From the IMG/VR virus record IMGVR_UViG_3300031707_000157, positions 1 to 25,556 of that record: a DNA stretch of 25,556 nucleotides; one strand, 5' to 3'. The notes beneath the pieces were generated by a model. That model made no database searches. It saw nothing but the letters and a program-made list of their open reading frames with translations, and had not been told where the DNA came from. The position numbers were made by a program, and so were the translations under genes. Position 1 is the stretch's first letter. Every line of letters begins with the position of its first letter. This DNA comes from a virus. Shown here piece after piece: positions 3,661-23,853 of the stretch.

Positions 3661-4281
3661 ATGGGAAACCGCATTAAATTCAAAAACACGTTCGGTTCTC
3701 AGGACGCTCGTCTTGACCTTCAGCGGGGTGACCTGTTCAAGTTCAAGATTCAGTTGCCTGCGGCATTGAACATGAAGTGGGAGAACGAGGTGGAGTTCGC
3801 AGTCGAGAATTTTCCGTTCCCGGCCCGTACTAAAGAGACCATCCCTATCAAGTACTTGCAACAGACCAACCATCAAATCGGTGCAGACGCTGCGACCGCT
3901 TCAGTAGCGGTACTCGTCCGCTATGCCTTCTCAACTCAAACTGCGAAAGCGCTGGAGTCGTGGTTTTGGCTGATTTCAAATCCGCTAACCGGTGGTGTGG
4001 GTCTGACTTCTCAAGTCAAAGCGAAGGGGTACTTCATCTGGATGGTGCCAAACATGGCCCGGCAAATAGCTGACCTTACTCAGACTTCGAATTCCACAAC
4101 TGAAGCTCAGGACGTCATGAAGCCAGGTTTGATCTATGCGCTGGAAGGTGTCTGGCCATCGGGGCTAAAACCGTCGGACGCTGACATGAAAACAGGTAAT
4201 ACGACGGTCCATATGGAATTTACCTTGATGATAGATCGGTACTATCCCGAAAGCTTGGACAAAATGCTTGTCACGGTGTAA
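3661..4281 (+). CDS. Tail tube protein (T4 gp19-like)
   Basis: The protein (206 residues, against 163 for T4 gp19) should stack in hexameric rings to form the inner tail tube. It begins with a segment typical of this family (RIKFKNTFGSQDARLDLQRGDLFKFKI), where a DxxRxDLF-like pattern is also seen in the tube-like paralogue at 8336. A loop with ENFPFPARTKETIPIKYL and a C-terminal HMEFTLMIDRYYPESLDKMLV strand complete the beta-barrel fold. It follows the sheath gene by 13 bases with no clear Shine-Dalgarno and no copy of either leader motif, so it is probably expressed from the sheath transcript. The identification rests on sequence pattern plus its position next to the sheath. Confidence 0.9.
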   Translation: MGNRIKFKNTFGSQDARLDLQRGDLFKFKIQLPAALNMKWENEVEFAVENFPFPARTKETIPIKYLQQTNHQIGADAATASVAVLVRYAFSTQTAKALESWFWLISNPLTGGVGLTSQVKAKGYFIWMVPNMARQIADLTQTSNSTTEAQDVMKPGLIYALEGVWPSGLKPSDADMKTGNTTVHMEFTLMIDRYYPESLDKMLVTV

Positions 4282-8323: not shown

Positions 8324-8335
8324 GTGGGATCACGA

Positions 8336-9037
8336 ATGCGATTTCAAGAAAACGTGTGGGGTAAGCAAGGGTCAGAAAGCGCCTTGGACGCCCAAAGGTC
8401 TGATCTGTGGTCTATAAACATGGTCAATGTTGTAGAGGGTGTTAAACAAATTTCTACAATGGAGATAGGTACGCTGGAGCCTTATTATGCAAGGTCAGTT
8501 GTACTTCCAGAGATGAAGATGAAGCCGGAATCAGTGCGGCGTGACTCTCGGTCCTATATGATGCCAGGATTTGATGAAGCGTTGGACTCCATTAAGATAA
8601 CTTTTCTGATGGATGCGTGCGCTTATCGGACGGAGTCAAAGATTTATCGTTTGCTGACTTTGTGGAGAAAATTAGTGAGAGCCGGGCGTGGTCCAATGTC
8701 TAGTGAGATGTCCATCGACTTAAACGATAATTACCAACTTCCATACGCCTTCTCAATACCGGTCACTCTTCTACGTGGTACTGAACTTAAAGCCACGGCA
8801 ATTACGTCAGCATCACTTTTACCTCCTTTTGCCAGTACCAGGCAAAAGGTGGATGATCAAGGTCTTACAATCTCTCAGCAGCTTACGCTGGAGAACGCTT
8901 GGTTGTGCGGATTCAAACTTTCGGAACTGAGCTATGCGACCGGAAATCAGATAACGACCATCGACGCTACTATCTATGCTACGGATATTCTAGGATATGG
9001 TGATACCCAGATTACTTCACCGTACCCAACACATTAG
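8336..9037 (+). CDS. Tail tube-like baseplate protein (possible tube initiator)
   Basis: A 233-residue protein whose N-terminus (MRFQENVWGKQGSESALDAQRSDLWSINM) parallels that of the tail tube protein (RIKFKNTFGSQDARLDLQRGDLFKFKI), so the two are probably paralogues. In T4, tube-like folds recur in gp48 and gp54, which link the baseplate to the tube, and a gene next to the spike fits such a role. Further features are a helix YRTESKIYRLLTLWRKLVRAGRG and a C-terminal strand-rich half. I chose the ATG at 8336 because it matches the tube N-terminus; a GTG at 8324 would add four residues. The exact equivalent (gp48, gp54 or another) cannot be decided here. Confidence 0.75.
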   Translation: MRFQENVWGKQGSESALDAQRSDLWSINMVNVVEGVKQISTMEIGTLEPYYARSVVLPEMKMKPESVRRDSRSYMMPGFDEALDSIKITFLMDACAYRTESKIYRLLTLWRKLVRAGRGPMSSEMSIDLNDNYQLPYAFSIPVTLLRGTELKATAITSASLLPPFASTRQKVDDQGLTISQQLTLENAWLCGFKLSELSYATGNQITTIDATIYATDILGYGDTQITSPYPTH

Positions 9038-9044
9038 ACATGAT

Positions 9045-9242
9045 CTAATTGGATGGTACGCTCCATACCGGAATTAACTGAACAGGCTTGACTTCTTCAG
9101 GCTTGTGCTCCTTCAACCTTTCGCAGATACTGAGCCCGATAGACGCTTGACAGCTGCTATCCTCGTACGGGACAGACTCCAGAAGAAGGGTTGGGGATGC
9201 TGTTGCCTTCTTGGCAATGTCGATATATGCGTTCAAGTTCAT
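9045..9242 (-). CDS. Small protein of unknown function
   Basis: A 65-residue protein on the minus strand between the tube-like gene and the primase gene. Support for it being real comes from the GTAGTTAGAACAG motif directly before its ATG, the same type that precedes the sheath, spike, portal and fibre genes. The N-terminus is helical (LNAYIDIAKKATA) and the C-terminus rich in Pro, Val and Lys; there are two Cys (in SSCQ and SICE). No signal peptide or membrane segment. Its end nearly meets the stop of the + strand gene at 9037. Function unknown. Confidence 0.6.
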   Translation of the reverse strand: MNLNAYIDIAKKATASPTLLLESVPYEDSSCQASIGLSICERLKEHKPEEVKPVQLIPVWSVPSN

Positions 9243-9255
9243 CTGTTCTAACTAC
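9243..9255 (-). promoter_or_regulatory. TAGTTAAAGC-type motif on the minus strand
   Basis: GTAGTTAGAACAG read leftward abuts the ATG at 9242. It lies in the 22-base gap between this small gene and the divergent primase start at 9265. Confidence 0.5.
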
Positions 9256-9264
9256 GGTAGCAAC

Positions 9265-10323
9265 ATGAAAGGGCAAGCGCTAAAGCAGGCAATCAGCAAT
9301 CTGTTTGGGATTGTGAAAGACCGGTCCACGCCCGAGGAGCTGGTGTTCATCTGTCCCGAACCGGGATGTGGTGATCGCACCGGTAATCGCTCAGCGAATC
9401 TGCGAAACGGTAAAACGTCGTGTTGGAAGTGCAACAAAGGGGGTGACTTCGTCCGCTGGGCCAAGCACCTAGGATACAAGATTGACGGCATAGTGGTTCC
9501 AGAGTCGTCTGTGGAGGCGTTTGAGCGTCAGGTGGAACAAACATCCGTCCCGAAGCTCGCAACGCTTGTCTACGCCCTCGTAAAGATGCCGGAAGGGTTT
9601 GTAAGGTGCCAGGATGCCCCTCAGTCTGTATACACTCGCCTGATAGGCACTATGGCGCAAAGAAAGAACCTTACGCTAGACGATCTCATAGAGGTAGAGG
9701 TTGGTTTTACCCGTCAAGGCAGATGGGAGCCATTTGCCATCTTTCCAGTGATTGAACGAGGCAGGACGGTCTACTACCAGGGACGAACTTATATTGATGA
9801 ACCCGGTAAGACTACCAAGAAGTTTCCTTCCCGTCACGAGTGTCCGGTGTCGTCTAAATTTTGGGTCTACAACATTGACGCTGTGAAGAATCCTGAAGTG
9901 ACTAAGGTGGTGGTGGTAGAATCCATTCTCAATTGTTTGTCACTTAAAAAGCGGTTTCAGGAGCTAGGTGTCATGGATACGGTTCCAGTCTGCGTTTTCA
10001 AACATGCTGTAAGTCGTGAGCAAGCACGCAAGTTGTTTAAGCACAAAAATATAGATGAGGTTGTACTGCTTTTTGACCGGGATGCGATAGAGAAATCCTG
10101 GGAGGATGCTGCGGATCTTAATTTGTTCAAGACCGTAACGATAGCAGAGATGCCTGAAGTGCCCGGGAGACCGAAAATCGATGCAAACGATGACGTTGAC
10201 CTTGCTTTGGAGGCATTGGCTCGTAGAACATTGTTTAAGGCGGCTGATAAGACTCTACGGGAGGCGGTGCCAGTACCGATCAAGTACGATCTCAGTACCC
10301 TCAACTTCGATTTGACAGTGTGA
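9265..10323 (+). CDS. DNA primase, DnaG/T4 gp61-type (zinc ribbon plus TOPRIM)
   Basis: The enzyme would make RNA primers for lagging-strand synthesis. In the 352-residue form the N-terminal zinc ribbon has Cys30, Cys35, Cys53 and Cys56 (FICPEPGCGDRTG ... TSCWKC). The TOPRIM core shows Glu219 in VVVVESILNCLSL and Asp271/Asp273 in VVLLFDRDA. There is no C-terminal helicase domain, so it is like T4 gp61 (342 residues) rather than T7 gp4. The ATG at 9265 begins MKGQALKQAISNLFG just before the zinc domain; an upstream in-frame TTG at 9211 would run antisense into the small minus-strand gene and is less likely. No good Shine-Dalgarno. The co-chaperonin-like gene follows after 33 bases. Confidence 0.87.
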   Translation: MKGQALKQAISNLFGIVKDRSTPEELVFICPEPGCGDRTGNRSANLRNGKTSCWKCNKGGDFVRWAKHLGYKIDGIVVPESSVEAFERQVEQTSVPKLATLVYALVKMPEGFVRCQDAPQSVYTRLIGTMAQRKNLTLDDLIEVEVGFTRQGRWEPFAIFPVIERGRTVYYQGRTYIDEPGKTTKKFPSRHECPVSSKFWVYNIDAVKNPEVTKVVVVESILNCLSLKKRFQELGVMDTVPVCVFKHAVSREQARKLFKHKNIDEVVLLFDRDAIEKSWEDAADLNLFKTVTIAEMPEVPGRPKIDANDDVDLALEALARRTLFKAADKTLREAVPVPIKYDLSTLNFDLTV

Positions 10324-10344
10324 AATGTAGACGTACGAGACTTG

Positions 10345-10356: not shown

Positions 10357-10923
10357 ATGATACTGAAATTGTTCGGACAACGAATCGCACTTATCGAAGT
10401 GAAGGAAGAGCTTGAAGGCTCGATCCTCTTACCTGAATCCAGGACCCGGTCGTTTTATATGGGCCGTGTTACCGTAGTGGGTGATGGACGGGATCCGGAC
10501 GGCACGGTCAAACCTATGTGGGTGAGTGCTGGAGACCTGATTATGTTTCAACTAATCGGTGCTCAGGCCATCGCTTCACAATTCGTCCACGACGACAACA
10601 AGGTGCGCATCCTTCATCAAGGAGATGCTATCGCCCGCTTGAAGTCCAACATGATCAAGTTGGAGAACTTCGAAATTCTAGGTGACTGGGTGCTCTCCAA
10701 GGTGGACATGCAGACCGGTACTACGTTGGTTGTTCCTGACTCTGCTCGTCAGCCCAATATGTTCACGTTCAAGCTAGAGCAAAAGGGTGCTGGTGTCGAG
10801 CATGACATTCAGAAAGGTGAAGAAATTTATGTTGAGCGTATGCGTTGTAACCCAATTGAGATTGACCGAGTGACATACGCCTTTTGTCATAAGAACGACG
10901 TGCACGGTGTGGTGAAATCATGA
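10357..10923 (+). CDS. Tandem GroES-like co-chaperonin (two Cpn10-type domains)
   Basis: A 188-residue protein that reads as two GroES-like domains in a row. Domain 1 (about 1-97) has LFGQRIALIEV, a loop with EGSILLPES matching the GroES mobile loop and its hydrophobic triplet, VGDGRDPDGT, VSAGDLIMFQ and a closing ILHQGDAIARL. Domain 2 (about 105-187) repeats the pattern: ILGDWVLSKV, TTLVVPDSA, IQKGEEIYVER and CHKNDVHGVV. T4 encodes a single-domain co-chaperonin, gp31 (111 residues), that adapts host GroEL for folding the major capsid protein; a similar role is inferred. Tandem Cpn10 domains are known in chloroplast Cpn20. The ATG at 10357 is preferred to a TTG at 10342. Its stop overlaps the next start (ATGA). 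Confidence 0.82.
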   Translation: MILKLFGQRIALIEVKEELEGSILLPESRTRSFYMGRVTVVGDGRDPDGTVKPMWVSAGDLIMFQLIGAQAIASQFVHDDNKVRILHQGDAIARLKSNMIKLENFEILGDWVLSKVDMQTGTTLVVPDSARQPNMFTFKLEQKGAGVEHDIQKGEEIYVERMRCNPIEIDRVTYAFCHKNDVHGVVKS

Positions 10924-11453
10924 TCGGCCCTATGTCTAGCGCCCGAGAAATTTTGGAGCATCTGTGCTCTGAGGGAGACGATGTGTGGCAGACAGGCATG
11001 TTGGGGTTGATGTCTACAACTATTTTTCCGATTCTGGAGGCGTGGAGTGATCATAGAAAAGTAGAAATTGTAAAAAAGAACGATCGGAAGGGAATCAAAT
11101 TGATCGATCACGTGGTTATTGGAGACTATGACATAACACTGTGGAGAGTACCGGTTGAGACAGACTTTTATTCCACTGGCATACTTTGGGCAGTGTCTAT
11201 TAACTCTGATCAGCATGACCCGTCGGATGCAAATGTACAAACGCTTAAATTTCCTGGCTCTTCTCTGAGACATTTGCCGGCGGATTCCATTTCGGAAGTT
11301 TTTCGAGGATGGATTGAAGAATATGGAAAGCTAGCGGTAGGAACAGTTAGTCTTGACAGGCTTTTGCTTTATCGCCGAATATGTGTTCGAGAGGGGTTTC
11401 GAGTAACCGATATGAACCCTAATTTGCCTCGGGCAGGTTTTTTTATCGAGTGA
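10920..11453 (+). CDS. Unknown protein, paralogue of the protein at 22006-22557
   Basis: A 177-residue protein coupled to the co-chaperonin-like gene by an ATGA overlap. It is clearly related to the protein at 22006: both have a helical N-terminus (SAREILEHLCSEGD), an LEAWSDHRKVEIV segment, a core VVIGDYDITLWR, a stretch ending in an HDP turn, and a helix FRGWIEEYGKLAVGTVSLDRLLLYRRI. No known catalytic motif is recognised, and there is no signal peptide or membrane segment. Conservation centres on the IG[DE]YD[IL]TLW core and the GW..EYG..[AV][IV]G[TS]V helix. It ends just before a perfect palindrome that probably terminates the transcript. A direct repeat TTATCGAGT occurs at its end and 17 bases later. 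Confidence 0.75.
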   Translation: MIGPMSSAREILEHLCSEGDDVWQTGMLGLMSTTIFPILEAWSDHRKVEIVKKNDRKGIKLIDHVVIGDYDITLWRVPVETDFYSTGILWAVSINSDQHDPSDANVQTLKFPGSSLRHLPADSISEVFRGWIEEYGKLAVGTVSLDRLLLYRRICVREGFRVTDMNPNLPRAGFFIE

Positions 11454-19213: not shown

Positions 19214-20265
19214 GTCTTGTCGAAGCACTTCAATTTAGCAGCGACGCTATAGGTGATTCCGCCGGTTGCAGCCATTACCTTGCACCGAAATACGTAACAA
19301 GGAATTTCGTCTTCTCCCAACCATTCATTGCTATGGCCACTTCCTACATGGATGTTTTGAGCACTAAACGTGGCGCTCGTAGCTCCCGAGAGTGCTTTTA
19401 CCTGGGCTCCCGTAAATCGGGGGGAGTCGTAGTCGCTGCCGTCTGTCATGTTTGTCCAGTTGGAATCGAGTAGTAGCAGGGGATCGAGTTTACTGGTGAC
19501 GTTAAGAGTGGCTATCTGCCACTGATAAGTGATTGGTATATCCGGTGTAACCGCAACTACCGAAAAGGTTCTGGTAGGCAGAGGTTCACTACTAGCCTTG
19601 GTTTGTTGATCGACTGGTTGAGACGTGATCCGGGGTGCTTGTGGCGGACCGGTAATGTTCTGGTCTCCAGCCAGTTTGTACTGTCGGTTGCCAAAGGTCA
19701 TTTTGACTGCTTTACGACCAACGATGTGACCCAGGGAGTCGAGGAAATCTTCGTCCGTTGTCAGGATGCCATAATGGGGCGTTGGGGCCTTTTCACCGTG
19801 GTTCAGCAAGGCGTGCGCCTTCAAGAGTTGGTCGGCGATCAATAAGTCCTGGAGCAGGGTCTCAGAGTAGCGGGTAAGCAGGCTGGAAGCAAGTTGAGGA
19901 ACTCCTGGGGAGTTAACCGATCCGTCCGGCCCCGTGCCGGTGTGGAATACACCCAGGCTAGCCGGCATTTCTCCCGACACCGTAGCGCCTCCAACCGGGA
20001 CTTTAGCGTTGTAAGTGGCAGCTGCGTCCGCTGGCACGTAGACAACTTCCAGGTTTCCGGGAGTGGTTTCAACGGACATTCTCAGCACATAAGAAGAGAG
20101 CTGATCACCACCGCTATCGAAGTAATCACCGGTGATCAGCGATATACCGTGTCCTTTTGCCAATGATCCGTTGCGATGAAAGAACAGGTTGTTGCTTAGG
20201 GTGTTCAATACCTCGTTGATGCGCCCGATCTCGCTTTGAGTTAGAAGTGTTGCTTGTTCGCTCAT
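19210..20265 (-). CDS. Virion-type protein with a C-terminal Ig-like domain
   Basis: 351 residues. The N-terminal 100 residues (INEVLNTLSNNLFFHRNG ... LSSYVLRMSV ... VVYVPAD) appear related to the N-terminus of the protein encoded just upstream (20262-20825). The middle is helical (SSLLTRYSETLLQDLLIADQLLKAHALL). From about residue 212 an Ig-like domain begins (PRITSQPVDQQ, TYQWQIATLN, then ATFSAQNIHV and CYVFRCKVMAATGG), with a Trp in the QW strand and the Cys of the YVFRC strand. Ig-like domains in phages usually decorate capsids or tails and aid weak host or surface binding. It starts in an ATGA overlap with the upstream gene and has a 10-bp inverted repeat at 20100-20140. Confidence 0.8.
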   Translation of the reverse strand: MSEQATLLTQSEIGRINEVLNTLSNNLFFHRNGSLAKGHGISLITGDYFDSGGDQLSSYVLRMSVETTPGNLEVVYVPADAAATYNAKVPVGGATVSGEMPASLGVFHTGTGPDGSVNSPGVPQLASSLLTRYSETLLQDLLIADQLLKAHALLNHGEKAPTPHYGILTTDEDFLDSLGHIVGRKAVKMTFGNRQYKLAGDQNITGPPQAPRITSQPVDQQTKASSEPLPTRTFSVVAVTPDIPITYQWQIATLNVTSKLDPLLLLDSNWTNMTDGSDYDSPRFTGAQVKALSGATSATFSAQNIHVGSGHSNEWLGEDEIPCYVFRCKVMAATGGITYSVAAKLKCFDKT

Positions 20266-20825
20266 GCGGTGTAGGTCAAAGTGATGACCTGACTGGTGAC
20301 TGATCCTCCGGCATTGGCAGCCACGCAGGTATAGTTTCCACTGTCTGTCTCGGAGATGTTCCTGAGCGTCAGGGTTGATCTTGTTTCATTAGAGAGGTTG
20401 ATCCCTGTCTTGCGCCACTGGTAGACTATCGGTCCCGTGCCGGTCACAGTGATTGATAGGATGATGTTCGATCCCTGCACTATGGCTTGACTGGCAGACT
20501 GGGTGGATATTTCAGGAGGACCGATGTTGACGGTTGGAACCGTGGTTCCCAGGAACACCGGCAGCACCACCACGATGTCCGTGTTGGATGTAGAGCCTGG
20601 GAGTGTAGACATTATGGTCAGAGTCCGACCGAATGAATGTCGTGCTCGACCCGAGTCATCGGCAGGAGGGTCATTGATCTGAAAAGGATACGTGCCAGCT
20701 ACCGCCTGGGTGTGTTGTTCATAGGCTCCATTGACGTGAGCAAAAATTCCGGTGACATAATCTGCCAGATTTCGCCCGACCGCTGTCTTTGCAGCCTCGG
20801 TTGCAAGTGACGTGTGCTGACTCAT
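20262..20825 (-). CDS. Virion-type protein with a C-terminal Ig-like (I-set type) domain
   Basis: 187 residues. Residues 102-187 form a clear Ig-like domain: PPEISTQSASQAIVQGSNI, QWRKTG with the core Trp, LTLRNISETDSGNYTCVAAN with the DxGxYxC motif, and a final GGSVTSQVITL strand. The N-terminal 100 residues, starting MSQHTSLATEAAKTAVGRNL, probably share a fold with the N-terminus of the next protein and may anchor it to the virion. The ATG at 20825 has no Shine-Dalgarno and neither leader motif close by; a GTTCTT lies 40 bases upstream. Head decoration or tail accessory protein is the usual role for this domain type. Confidence 0.85.
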   Translation of the reverse strand: MSQHTSLATEAAKTAVGRNLADYVTGIFAHVNGAYEQHTQAVAGTYPFQINDPPADDSGRARHSFGRTLTIMSTLPGSTSNTDIVVVLPVFLGTTVPTVNIGPPEISTQSASQAIVQGSNIILSITVTGTGPIVYQWRKTGINLSNETRSTLTLRNISETDSGNYTCVAANAGGSVTSQVITLTYTA

Positions 20826-22005: not shown

Positions 22006-22557
22006 ATGCACGCATCAAATTCCATGCTTTTGATGTCACACTCAGAGCGTGGCATCACTGCACGAGAACTTGTTCGCAGGATGCTCAGCGAGTATGACCC
22101 ATTTTGTGGCGTAGTAGGCACTGCACACGCAATCCCACTCTGTATACTTTATGAAGCGTGGTCACCTGAACGAAAAGAAGAAATTATCAAACATGGCAGG
22201 GAGCTAGGGTACGGTCTGGTAGAACACGCAGTAATCGGCGAGTACGACCTAACGCTATGGCACTCAGACAAGACTGAGCCACCCTATTTGGTGGCATTAA
22301 ATAGCGCCTACCACGATCCATTGAATCATGATACTCAAGAACAAAAACAAGTTGCAGGAAGAGGAATGGCGATTAAAACGATGAAAAGAGTACTGTTTGG
22401 ATGGGTTCAAGAATACGGTCCTTTGGTGATTGGTTCCGTTATGACAGAACAAACCGCACGCTATCTAAGACTTGTCCGTAAAATGTTTCCCACTGCCAAC
22501 ATCAAGTCCTGGTATAGCAAAGATTTCCAGCATGGGTTTACACTTTCGTTTGACTGA
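22006..22557 (+). CDS. Unknown protein, paralogue of the protein at 10920-11453
   Basis: 183 residues. Shared with the 10.9-kb paralogue are ITARELVRRMLSE (against SAREILEHLCSE), LYEAWSPERKEEII (against LEAWSDHRKVEIV), AVIGEYDLTLWH (against VVIGDYDITLWR), an HDP turn, and the helix LFGWVQEYGPLVIGSV (against FRGWIEEYGKLAVGTV). No catalytic residues of a known enzyme are recognised. The paralogue lies 11 kb away on the same strand. ATGs at codons 1, 7 and 10 are possible; the alignment favours codon 10 (22033), but the leader motif favours codon 1. It is followed by a T-rich stretch and the control region of the glycosyltransferase gene. Confidence 0.75.
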   Translation: MHASNSMLLMSHSERGITARELVRRMLSEYDPFCGVVGTAHAIPLCILYEAWSPERKEEIIKHGRELGYGLVEHAVIGEYDLTLWHSDKTEPPYLVALNSAYHDPLNHDTQEQKQVAGRGMAIKTMKRVLFGWVQEYGPLVIGSVMTEQTARYLRLVRKMFPTANIKSWYSKDFQHGFTLSFD

Positions 22558-22626: not shown

Positions 22627-23853
22627 ATGAATTGTGTTACATTCTGGGAGCCTGTCACGGTCTCATTCAGGAAGAGTGCCGGAGGGGCCACGCTGACCTT
22701 CGACGCTGGACGGGATTATATCTTTGCCAACGCTCAGCTAGACCGAATCATGCAGGAAGAGAATGTCAAGTCACGGATTTACAAGATTTCCCGCTTGGAC
22801 TCTCGAATTCCAAACTTCCACGTTGCTGCTAAGAAACCCGGCAACCAGCGTCTATTGATGTACAACGGGTCTGGCGGGTATGGTGATCAGATTATCACCT
22901 GGCCAGTCACTCGTATCCTGGCGGGAATGGGGTACGAGGTGCATATGGCGGTTGATCCAGGTAACCAGGTCTGCTGGTGGAATATCCCATGGGTGAAAAG
23001 TTTACAAACGTTGCCCATACAGGCTGCGCAATTTTGGATGTACGACTATTTTTACATGATGGATCATGTAAACAATATGGATGAACATCAAGATCAGGAG
23101 CATCCGGTAGACACTATGCTTCGTAAGATCGGTATCGATCCTAAGCAGGTTCCCGATGATTACAAGGTGTTGCGCCCTATTTTTACTGCCACGGAGGCCA
23201 TGTCTGCTCGATCCTATGAGGGTCAGAAATTTGGCATCTATCAGCTTGCTGCTGCTAATAAGACCCGATCCCTGCCTGCCCTTGACAGTGCTTTTTTGTT
23301 GGCTAAGCTGGCAGAAGCGTTCCCAGACCTTACCTGGTTGGCGATCTACGACGAGTTTATACCCAAGGAGTACTGTGAGGCATGCATGGCCAAGGCGAAG
23401 GACGCCGACGGCAAGGAACTGTTGAACGAAAAAAACGAGCCCATCATGAAGGTCAAGTGGTCCAATGTTCAACTTTTCACTGCTCGTAATCTCCGGGAGA
23501 TGTGGTCGATCACCCGTCACGCCAAGATCGTAGTGTCCCCTGATTCGATGATGGTGCACGTGGCAGGGTCAATGGCGATCCCCTGCGTCGGTCTCTGGGG
23601 CATGGTCAGCCCTCACAACCGGGTCAAGTATTATAAGAACCATCTGGCGATTCACAACAAGGAAGCGTGCCCGATGTCGCCGTGTTTCTCCTATCTGGCA
23701 AACTTCCCGAAGTACTGTCCACCTCGTAAGGATAGGATCGTGTGCGAATGCTTGGGTGCCATTTCGCCTGTTCAGGTGATTGATGCCATTCGGAAGATTC
23801 AACCAGAACTTGCCAAGAAGGAACCGGCCAAGGTGGATGCTCCTAAAGCGTGA
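22627..23853 (+). CDS. Glycosyltransferase, GT9 (heptosyltransferase-like) family
   Basis: A 408-residue sugar transferase of the GT-B fold. Residues 81-93 (GSGGYGDQIITWP) and the following helix match the N-terminal GT9 signature, and residues 303-325 (VVSPDSMMVHVAGSMAIPCVGLWG) match the C-terminal nucleotide-sugar motif with DSxxxHxAG and the WG turn. Cys348, 353, 364, 373 and 375 near the end resemble the Cys-rich tail of some GT9 members. The substrate cannot be read; it could modify host surface sugar to block superinfection, or a virion component or DNA base. AAAGGA lies before the ATG. It heads a run of five genes that includes an SGNH-type hydrolase. Confidence 0.85.
   Translation: MNCVTFWEPVTVSFRKSAGGATLTFDAGRDYIFANAQLDRIMQEENVKSRIYKISRLDSRIPNFHVAAKKPGNQRLLMYNGSGGYGDQIITWPVTRILAGMGYEVHMAVDPGNQVCWWNIPWVKSLQTLPIQAAQFWMYDYFYMMDHVNNMDEHQDQEHPVDTMLRKIGIDPKQVPDDYKVLRPIFTATEAMSARSYEGQKFGIYQLAAANKTRSLPALDSAFLLAKLAEAFPDLTWLAIYDEFIPKEYCEACMAKAKDADGKELLNEKNEPIMKVKWSNVQLFTARNLREMWSITRHAKIVVSPDSMMVHVAGSMAIPCVGLWGMVSPHNRVKYYKNHLAIHNKEACPMSPCFSYLANFPKYCPPRKDRIVCECLGAISPVQVIDAIRKIQPELAKKEPAKVDAPKA

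Follow-up and report, generated by a model that had tools for sequence, protein, structure and literature searches.

Genomic setting of the tandem gene

The window, by which we mean the whole 25,556-nucleotide stretch of viral DNA analyzed here (IMG/VR record IMGVR_UViG_3300031707_000157), contains T4-type contractile-tail genes encoding sheath, tube, hub, gp25 wedge and portal proteins. On its plus strand lies a gene for a tandem GroES-domain co-chaperonin of 188 aa (10357..10923, stop included). The original prediction had placed this reading frame correctly: the ATG is at 10357, the last codon ends at 10920 and the stop codon occupies 10921-10923. A TTG at 10342 is a less likely start, because the homologues begin at the residue aligned with the ATG.

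The conserved upstream neighbor is a DNA primase gene (9211..10323, plus strand), recognized by its match to phrog_47 (E 6e-25) and by synteny, and its stop is separated from the ATG of the tandem gene by 33 bases. Downstream, a gene without an assigned function (10920..11453, plus strand) overlaps the tandem gene stop by four bases (ATGA) and is probably translated together with it; its product has no Pfam match. The short gap to the primase gene and the ATGA overlap make it probable that the tandem gene forms one operon with both neighbors. A count of Shine-Dalgarno motifs gave no signal above chance. The gene at 10920-11453 has a paralogue in the window at 22006-22557, also without an assigned function (34% identity over 161 aa, E 1e-24).

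Two GroES domains in one chain

By every test that we ran, the protein belongs to the Cpn10 domain family. As a whole it matches Pfam Cpn10 (PF00166) in two stretches (E 8e-14), and each half presented alone scores above the curated cut-off of 21.1 bits, with 32.7 bits for the first domain (residues 1-98; 10357..10650, plus strand) and 24.0 bits for the second (residues 99-188; 10651..10920, plus strand). PHROG 3188, 'co-chaperonin GroES', also matches both halves. A profile made from second domains only finds Cpn10 structures in the PDB (E 2.9e-5 over 81 positions), and the domain tree described below supports both assignments. The two domain profiles align with each other end to end, if weakly (hhalign E 1.6e-4, a single comparison). 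Searched against the PDB as a single sequence, the window protein retrieves first Chlamydomonas chaperonin 23, itself a two-domain protein, and then single-domain GroES proteins. We considered phrog_6737 as a better family and rejected it, as it matches weakly (E 0.004, second half) and in one member only.

Structure prediction agrees with the profiles. AlphaFold2 models of the window protein (12 alignment rows; pLDDT 86.5, pTM 0.81) and of another family member (14 rows; pLDDT 86.1, pTM 0.82) each contain two beta-barrels, and in both models confidence is lowest in the two expected mobile loops. The test proposed for the original prediction, namely whether either half fails to fold as a Cpn10 barrel, was thus applied to predicted structures, and the prediction survived it. 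Foldseek ranks chloroplast Cpn20 (7ekq_R) first for both models, with a full-length alignment of 206-208 columns and a TM-score of 0.62-0.64; next come Cpn23, or bacterial and mitochondrial Cpn10. The arrangement of the two barrels within the chain therefore appears, in these models, to be roughly that of Cpn20. Together, the profiles, the two models and 13 relatives support both the tandem of GroES-like domains originally proposed and its comparison with Cpn20.

The two halves are not equivalent

The original prediction pointed to GroES landmarks in both halves: a GQR or GDW start, a hydrophobic triplet before P-E/D-S, an AGD or KGE strand, and a closing HQGDAIARL or HKNDVHGVV. All are present and fall in matching GroES columns, but the halves are no longer alike: the roof hairpin is gone from domain 2. 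In the domain alignment the E. coli GroES row is what we take to be its sequence, and the phage single-domain GroES rows came from searches of other phages.

The mobile loop of domain 1, VKEELEGSILLPESRT (10399..10446, plus strand), aligns with the GGIVL loop of GroES; its hydrophobic triplet, ILL, lies at 10423-10431, and I23 and P26 are nearly invariant among members. The mobile loop of domain 2, DMQTGTTLVVPDSARQP (10705..10755, plus strand), was located by alignment, includes an invariant proline (P127) and has a pLDDT of 60-76; its triplet, LVV, lies at 10726-10734. By sequence, a hydrophobic triplet before the proline is kept in both domains of all 14 distinct members, of the type I-x-L in domain 1, where the middle residue is often polar (IQL, IEL), and [IL]-[IVL]-[LVIMT] in domain 2. 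The second-domain loops do not have the glycine pair of GroES. Both loops are predicted to be of the GroEL-docking type.

The roof hairpin of domain 1, GDGRDPDGTVKPMWV (10480..10524, plus strand), was defined by alignment with E. coli GroES and resembles the GroES element. At the corresponding site domain 2 has only a short turn in the alignment (10786..10818, plus strand). The hairpin is missing from 14 of 14 second domains, as it is from T4 gp31. Most members have it in their first domain, and three first domains (L065, L070 and L071) have lost it as well.

A conserved gene of uncultivated T4-like phages

Direct searches with the window protein found few relatives. IMG/VR holds only two other copies, each 100% identical; GTDB genomes gave no tandem relative, whether searched with the window protein, with close relatives or with a subclade alignment; and INPHARED, searched with the window protein or close relatives, likewise gave none, the matches to the window protein there being single-domain GroES of bacterial type, none of them better than E 0.6. 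The alignment of all members is too diverged to serve as a query. We therefore gathered relatives through the neighboring primase and portal proteins, which yielded about 30 related phage contigs of up to 238 kb. Of 31 contigs searched, many of which are short fragments, 15 encode a tandem relative; a further member came from each of two later scans or both from one, making two additional members. The result is a set of 14 distinct, highly diverged tandem proteins with seven invariant residues across both halves; Pfam Cpn10 is detected in all 12 members scanned.

In 14 of 14 examined loci that span the site (two of them near-identical) the tandem gene stands directly behind the primase gene, and wherever the locus extends the downstream order is g11522, an sbcD-like gene, g13576 and portal, with g13576 occasionally undetected. 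This is a conserved core gene in a group of uncultivated, T4-like, large contractile-tailed phages. The distance from the tandem gene to g11522 varies among relatives from less than 0.2 kb to about 5 kb (loci L105-L110 and L007), which suggests that the stretch behind the tandem gene is an insertion hotspot.

In ten more distant phages, chosen by portal or capsid similarity, we find a Cpn10-like match in five. All five lie in frames that are 106-123 residues long and hold one domain, and two score under the Pfam cut-off, so the tandem architecture looks derived within this phage clade. Flavobacterium phage immuto (L089) has, from base 1788, a single-domain GroES gene followed directly by a frame resembling the start of GroEL; some distant relatives thus appear to carry a GroES-GroEL pair of their own.

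In the domain tree, the 14 second domains form a single clade (100/99) that has strongly diverged from GroES (branch length 1.64), and the first domains group with single-domain GroES. The alignment is short, the deeper order is unsure and the Cpn20 halves were left out. The monophyly of the second domains indicates that one duplication or fusion preceded the diversification of the phage group. Close pairs, in which synonymous changes approach saturation, give a dN/dS of about 0.12-0.26 for either half, and purifying selection therefore maintains each of them. The same fusion in 14 distinct proteins, at one locus and on many independent contigs, rejects the notion of a misassembly joining two genes or of a chance ORF, for which we found no supporting point and which we give practically no credence.

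A candidate lid for host GroEL

We consider it likely that the protein is a gp31-like lid for host GroEL, built on the Cpn20 architecture and serving chiefly to fold the capsid protein. It would cap the heptameric GroEL of the host during infection, by docking of the kind its loops predict, and replace or supplement GroES. Three or four copies may form a ring with six or eight domains; alternatively, three copies and one host GroES may supply seven. The original prediction likewise proposed, as an inference, a ring of different symmetry or mixed loops on host GroEL. A partly roofless dome could allow GroEL to fold those phage proteins that take up the whole cavity closed by GroES or are too large for it, and the principal client would be the T4 gp23-type major capsid protein. 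A gene for this capsid type is present in six of 16 contigs searched, all of them relatives; the window itself contains none. T4 gp31, which gp23 needs in order to fold, has no roof loops, and it is their absence that is considered helpful for gp23 folding (PMC6318259).

Several points count against this lid: the second-domain loops have no GroES glycine pair, the first-domain triplets are often polar in the middle, the window has no capsid gene, and the fold is only weakly similar to gp31. So does the even number of domains in each chain, which cannot be divided into seven GroEL sites and has been termed a 'symmetry dilemma' (PMC5780408, PMC3542282). By analogy, however, the mismatch need not be fatal, because the cpn20 of Plasmodium falciparum alone substitutes for GroES in E. 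coli, without a Cpn10 (PMC3542282), and because GroES concatamers with six and eight domains work with GroEL, one site or one domain being left unused, in the account given by PMC5780408 (citing Guo et al. 2015). It is tempting to speculate that the phage lid is even-numbered, works without host GroES and caps GroEL asymmetrically with alternating roofed and roofless domains, as a convergent viral counterpart of Cpn20 with specialized halves; for example, one half might close the dome and the other enlarge the cage. We hold this more elaborate version only tentatively.

It is possible, though we would not favor it, that the protein acts only as part of a hetero-oligomer, in which three tandem chains reach seven domains by taking in a single GroES from the host or a phage Cpn10 that has gone undetected. 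This is a special case of the lid that differs in stoichiometry, and it has been proposed for chloroplast Cpn20 with Cpn10. Chlamydomonas CPN20 and CPN23 do form seven-domain rings with a Cpn10 (PMC5780408). The clustering of the phage first domains with single-domain GroES points the same way, as does Cellulophaga phage phi18:3, which encodes a single-domain GroES of 84 aa together with one of double length (200 aa). However, we find no second, single-domain Cpn10/GroES gene in relatives of 203 and 238 kb, both contig fragments, which would leave the host to supply the partner, and the malarial Cpn20 functions without a Cpn10 (PMC3542282). A phage GroEL is likewise not found in the 16 contigs searched. 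Because all of these contigs are fragments, the searches could have overlooked a GroEL encoded by the phage or an additional gene for single-domain GroES.

The divergence of the second domains and the loss of their roof might instead reflect a protein that inhibits host GroEL or redirects it against host clients, or a structural or regulatory protein that has the GroES fold and no lid function. The position of the gene beside primase rather than among capsid genes would fit such a role. Purifying selection in both halves, the retained loop triplets and first domains that remain close to GroES argue against it, and we regard it as unlikely. More improbable still is that the tandem domains sit on some other machine with seven-fold symmetry, for instance ClpP of the host, as a cap that alters host protein turnover instead of acting on GroEL. 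The best structural match, 7ekq, is indeed a Chlamydomonas ClpP complex with Cpn11, Cpn20 and Cpn23, and the second-domain loops are unlike those of GroES. Nevertheless, both loops of all members carry hydrophobic triplets of the GroEL type, Chlamydomonas Cpn20 and Cpn23 are also chaperonin cofactors (PMC5780408), and the occurrence of the gene in phages with gp23-type capsids points toward folding.

Relation to known co-chaperonins

A close known design is that of chloroplast and apicoplast Cpn20, a chain of about 190-210 aa in which two GroES-like domains follow each other head to tail; Chlamydomonas CPN20/CPN23 (PDB 7ekq) is both the best full-length structural match and the best profile match. 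The phage protein differs in being encoded by a phage, between primase and portal genes, in sharing only 16-18% identity with Cpn20, and in having a second domain that is roofless in every member. It is Cpn20-like in architecture, but we do not class it as Cpn20, because Cpn20 is a plastid protein. With bacterial GroES/Cpn10 (PF00166) it shares the family match in both halves, the triplet in the mobile loop and the predicted beta-barrel, and differs in having two domains per chain where bacterial GroES has one.

It resembles gp31 of T4 and RB49-type phages in the following points: the encoding phages have a gp23-type capsid, no phage GroEL was detected in them, and the roof is missing. This last likeness covers domain 2 of all members and domain 1 of three, domain 1 of the window protein being roofed. 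In contrast to the two-domain phage protein, gp31 is single-domain and heptameric. We found no sequence link between the two: gp31 is absent among the PDB profile matches, and the similarity in fold is weak (1g31, Foldseek rank 32, E 0.055, 11% identity). The role is probably like that of gp31; the architecture is not.

The original prediction held that known phage co-chaperonins are single-domain. This is true of T4 gp31, but it fails as a universal rule. The 200-aa gp096 of phi18:3 (NC_021794), annotated 'co-chaperonin GroES', has a predicted structure that spans both halves of the tandem fold (BFVD S0A356, E 1e-6, 219 columns), although only its C-terminal half passes Pfam and its sequence link to the window protein is weak (E 0.002, a single comparison). 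It is probably two-domain as well. It differs from the family described here in coming from an unrelated phage type that also has a single-domain GroES. The two phi18:3 genes (L094:31108-31362 and 41458-42060), one single-domain and one double-length, are the set needed for a seven-domain mixed ring. BFVD holds three other double-length viral matches besides S0A356. The statement that the double structure of Cpn20 is specific to plant-lineage eukaryotes (PMC3542282) therefore seems, on the predicted phi18:3 structure, already strained. Our literature search, with most subscription journals outside it, found no description of a phage tandem GroES. Tandem lids in phages are uncommon and, within that search, lack a published description, but they are not unprecedented, because the phi18:3 protein is probably one.

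The conserved phage version is a second, probably independent natural case of a double-domain co-chaperonin. In it one half is consistently roofless, and the phages apparently encode no single-domain partner. Both the symmetry question and the cage-size model of gp31 become testable on it.

Other features of the window

Three further observations concern the rest of the window. A glycosyltransferase family 9 (heptosyltransferase-like) gene at 22627-23853 keeps a constant position, at about 50-59% identity, in related phages whose loci extend there, and is unusual as a core phage gene. Two distinct tail-tube-like proteins (3661-4281 and 8324-9037), both matching phrog_45, are encoded in this single phage, one behind the sheath gene and the other close to the hub genes. 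On the minus strand, 20262-20825 encodes a small protein, likely to lie on the virion surface, in which an immunoglobulin-like domain is strongly matched (Ig_3, E 7e-15).
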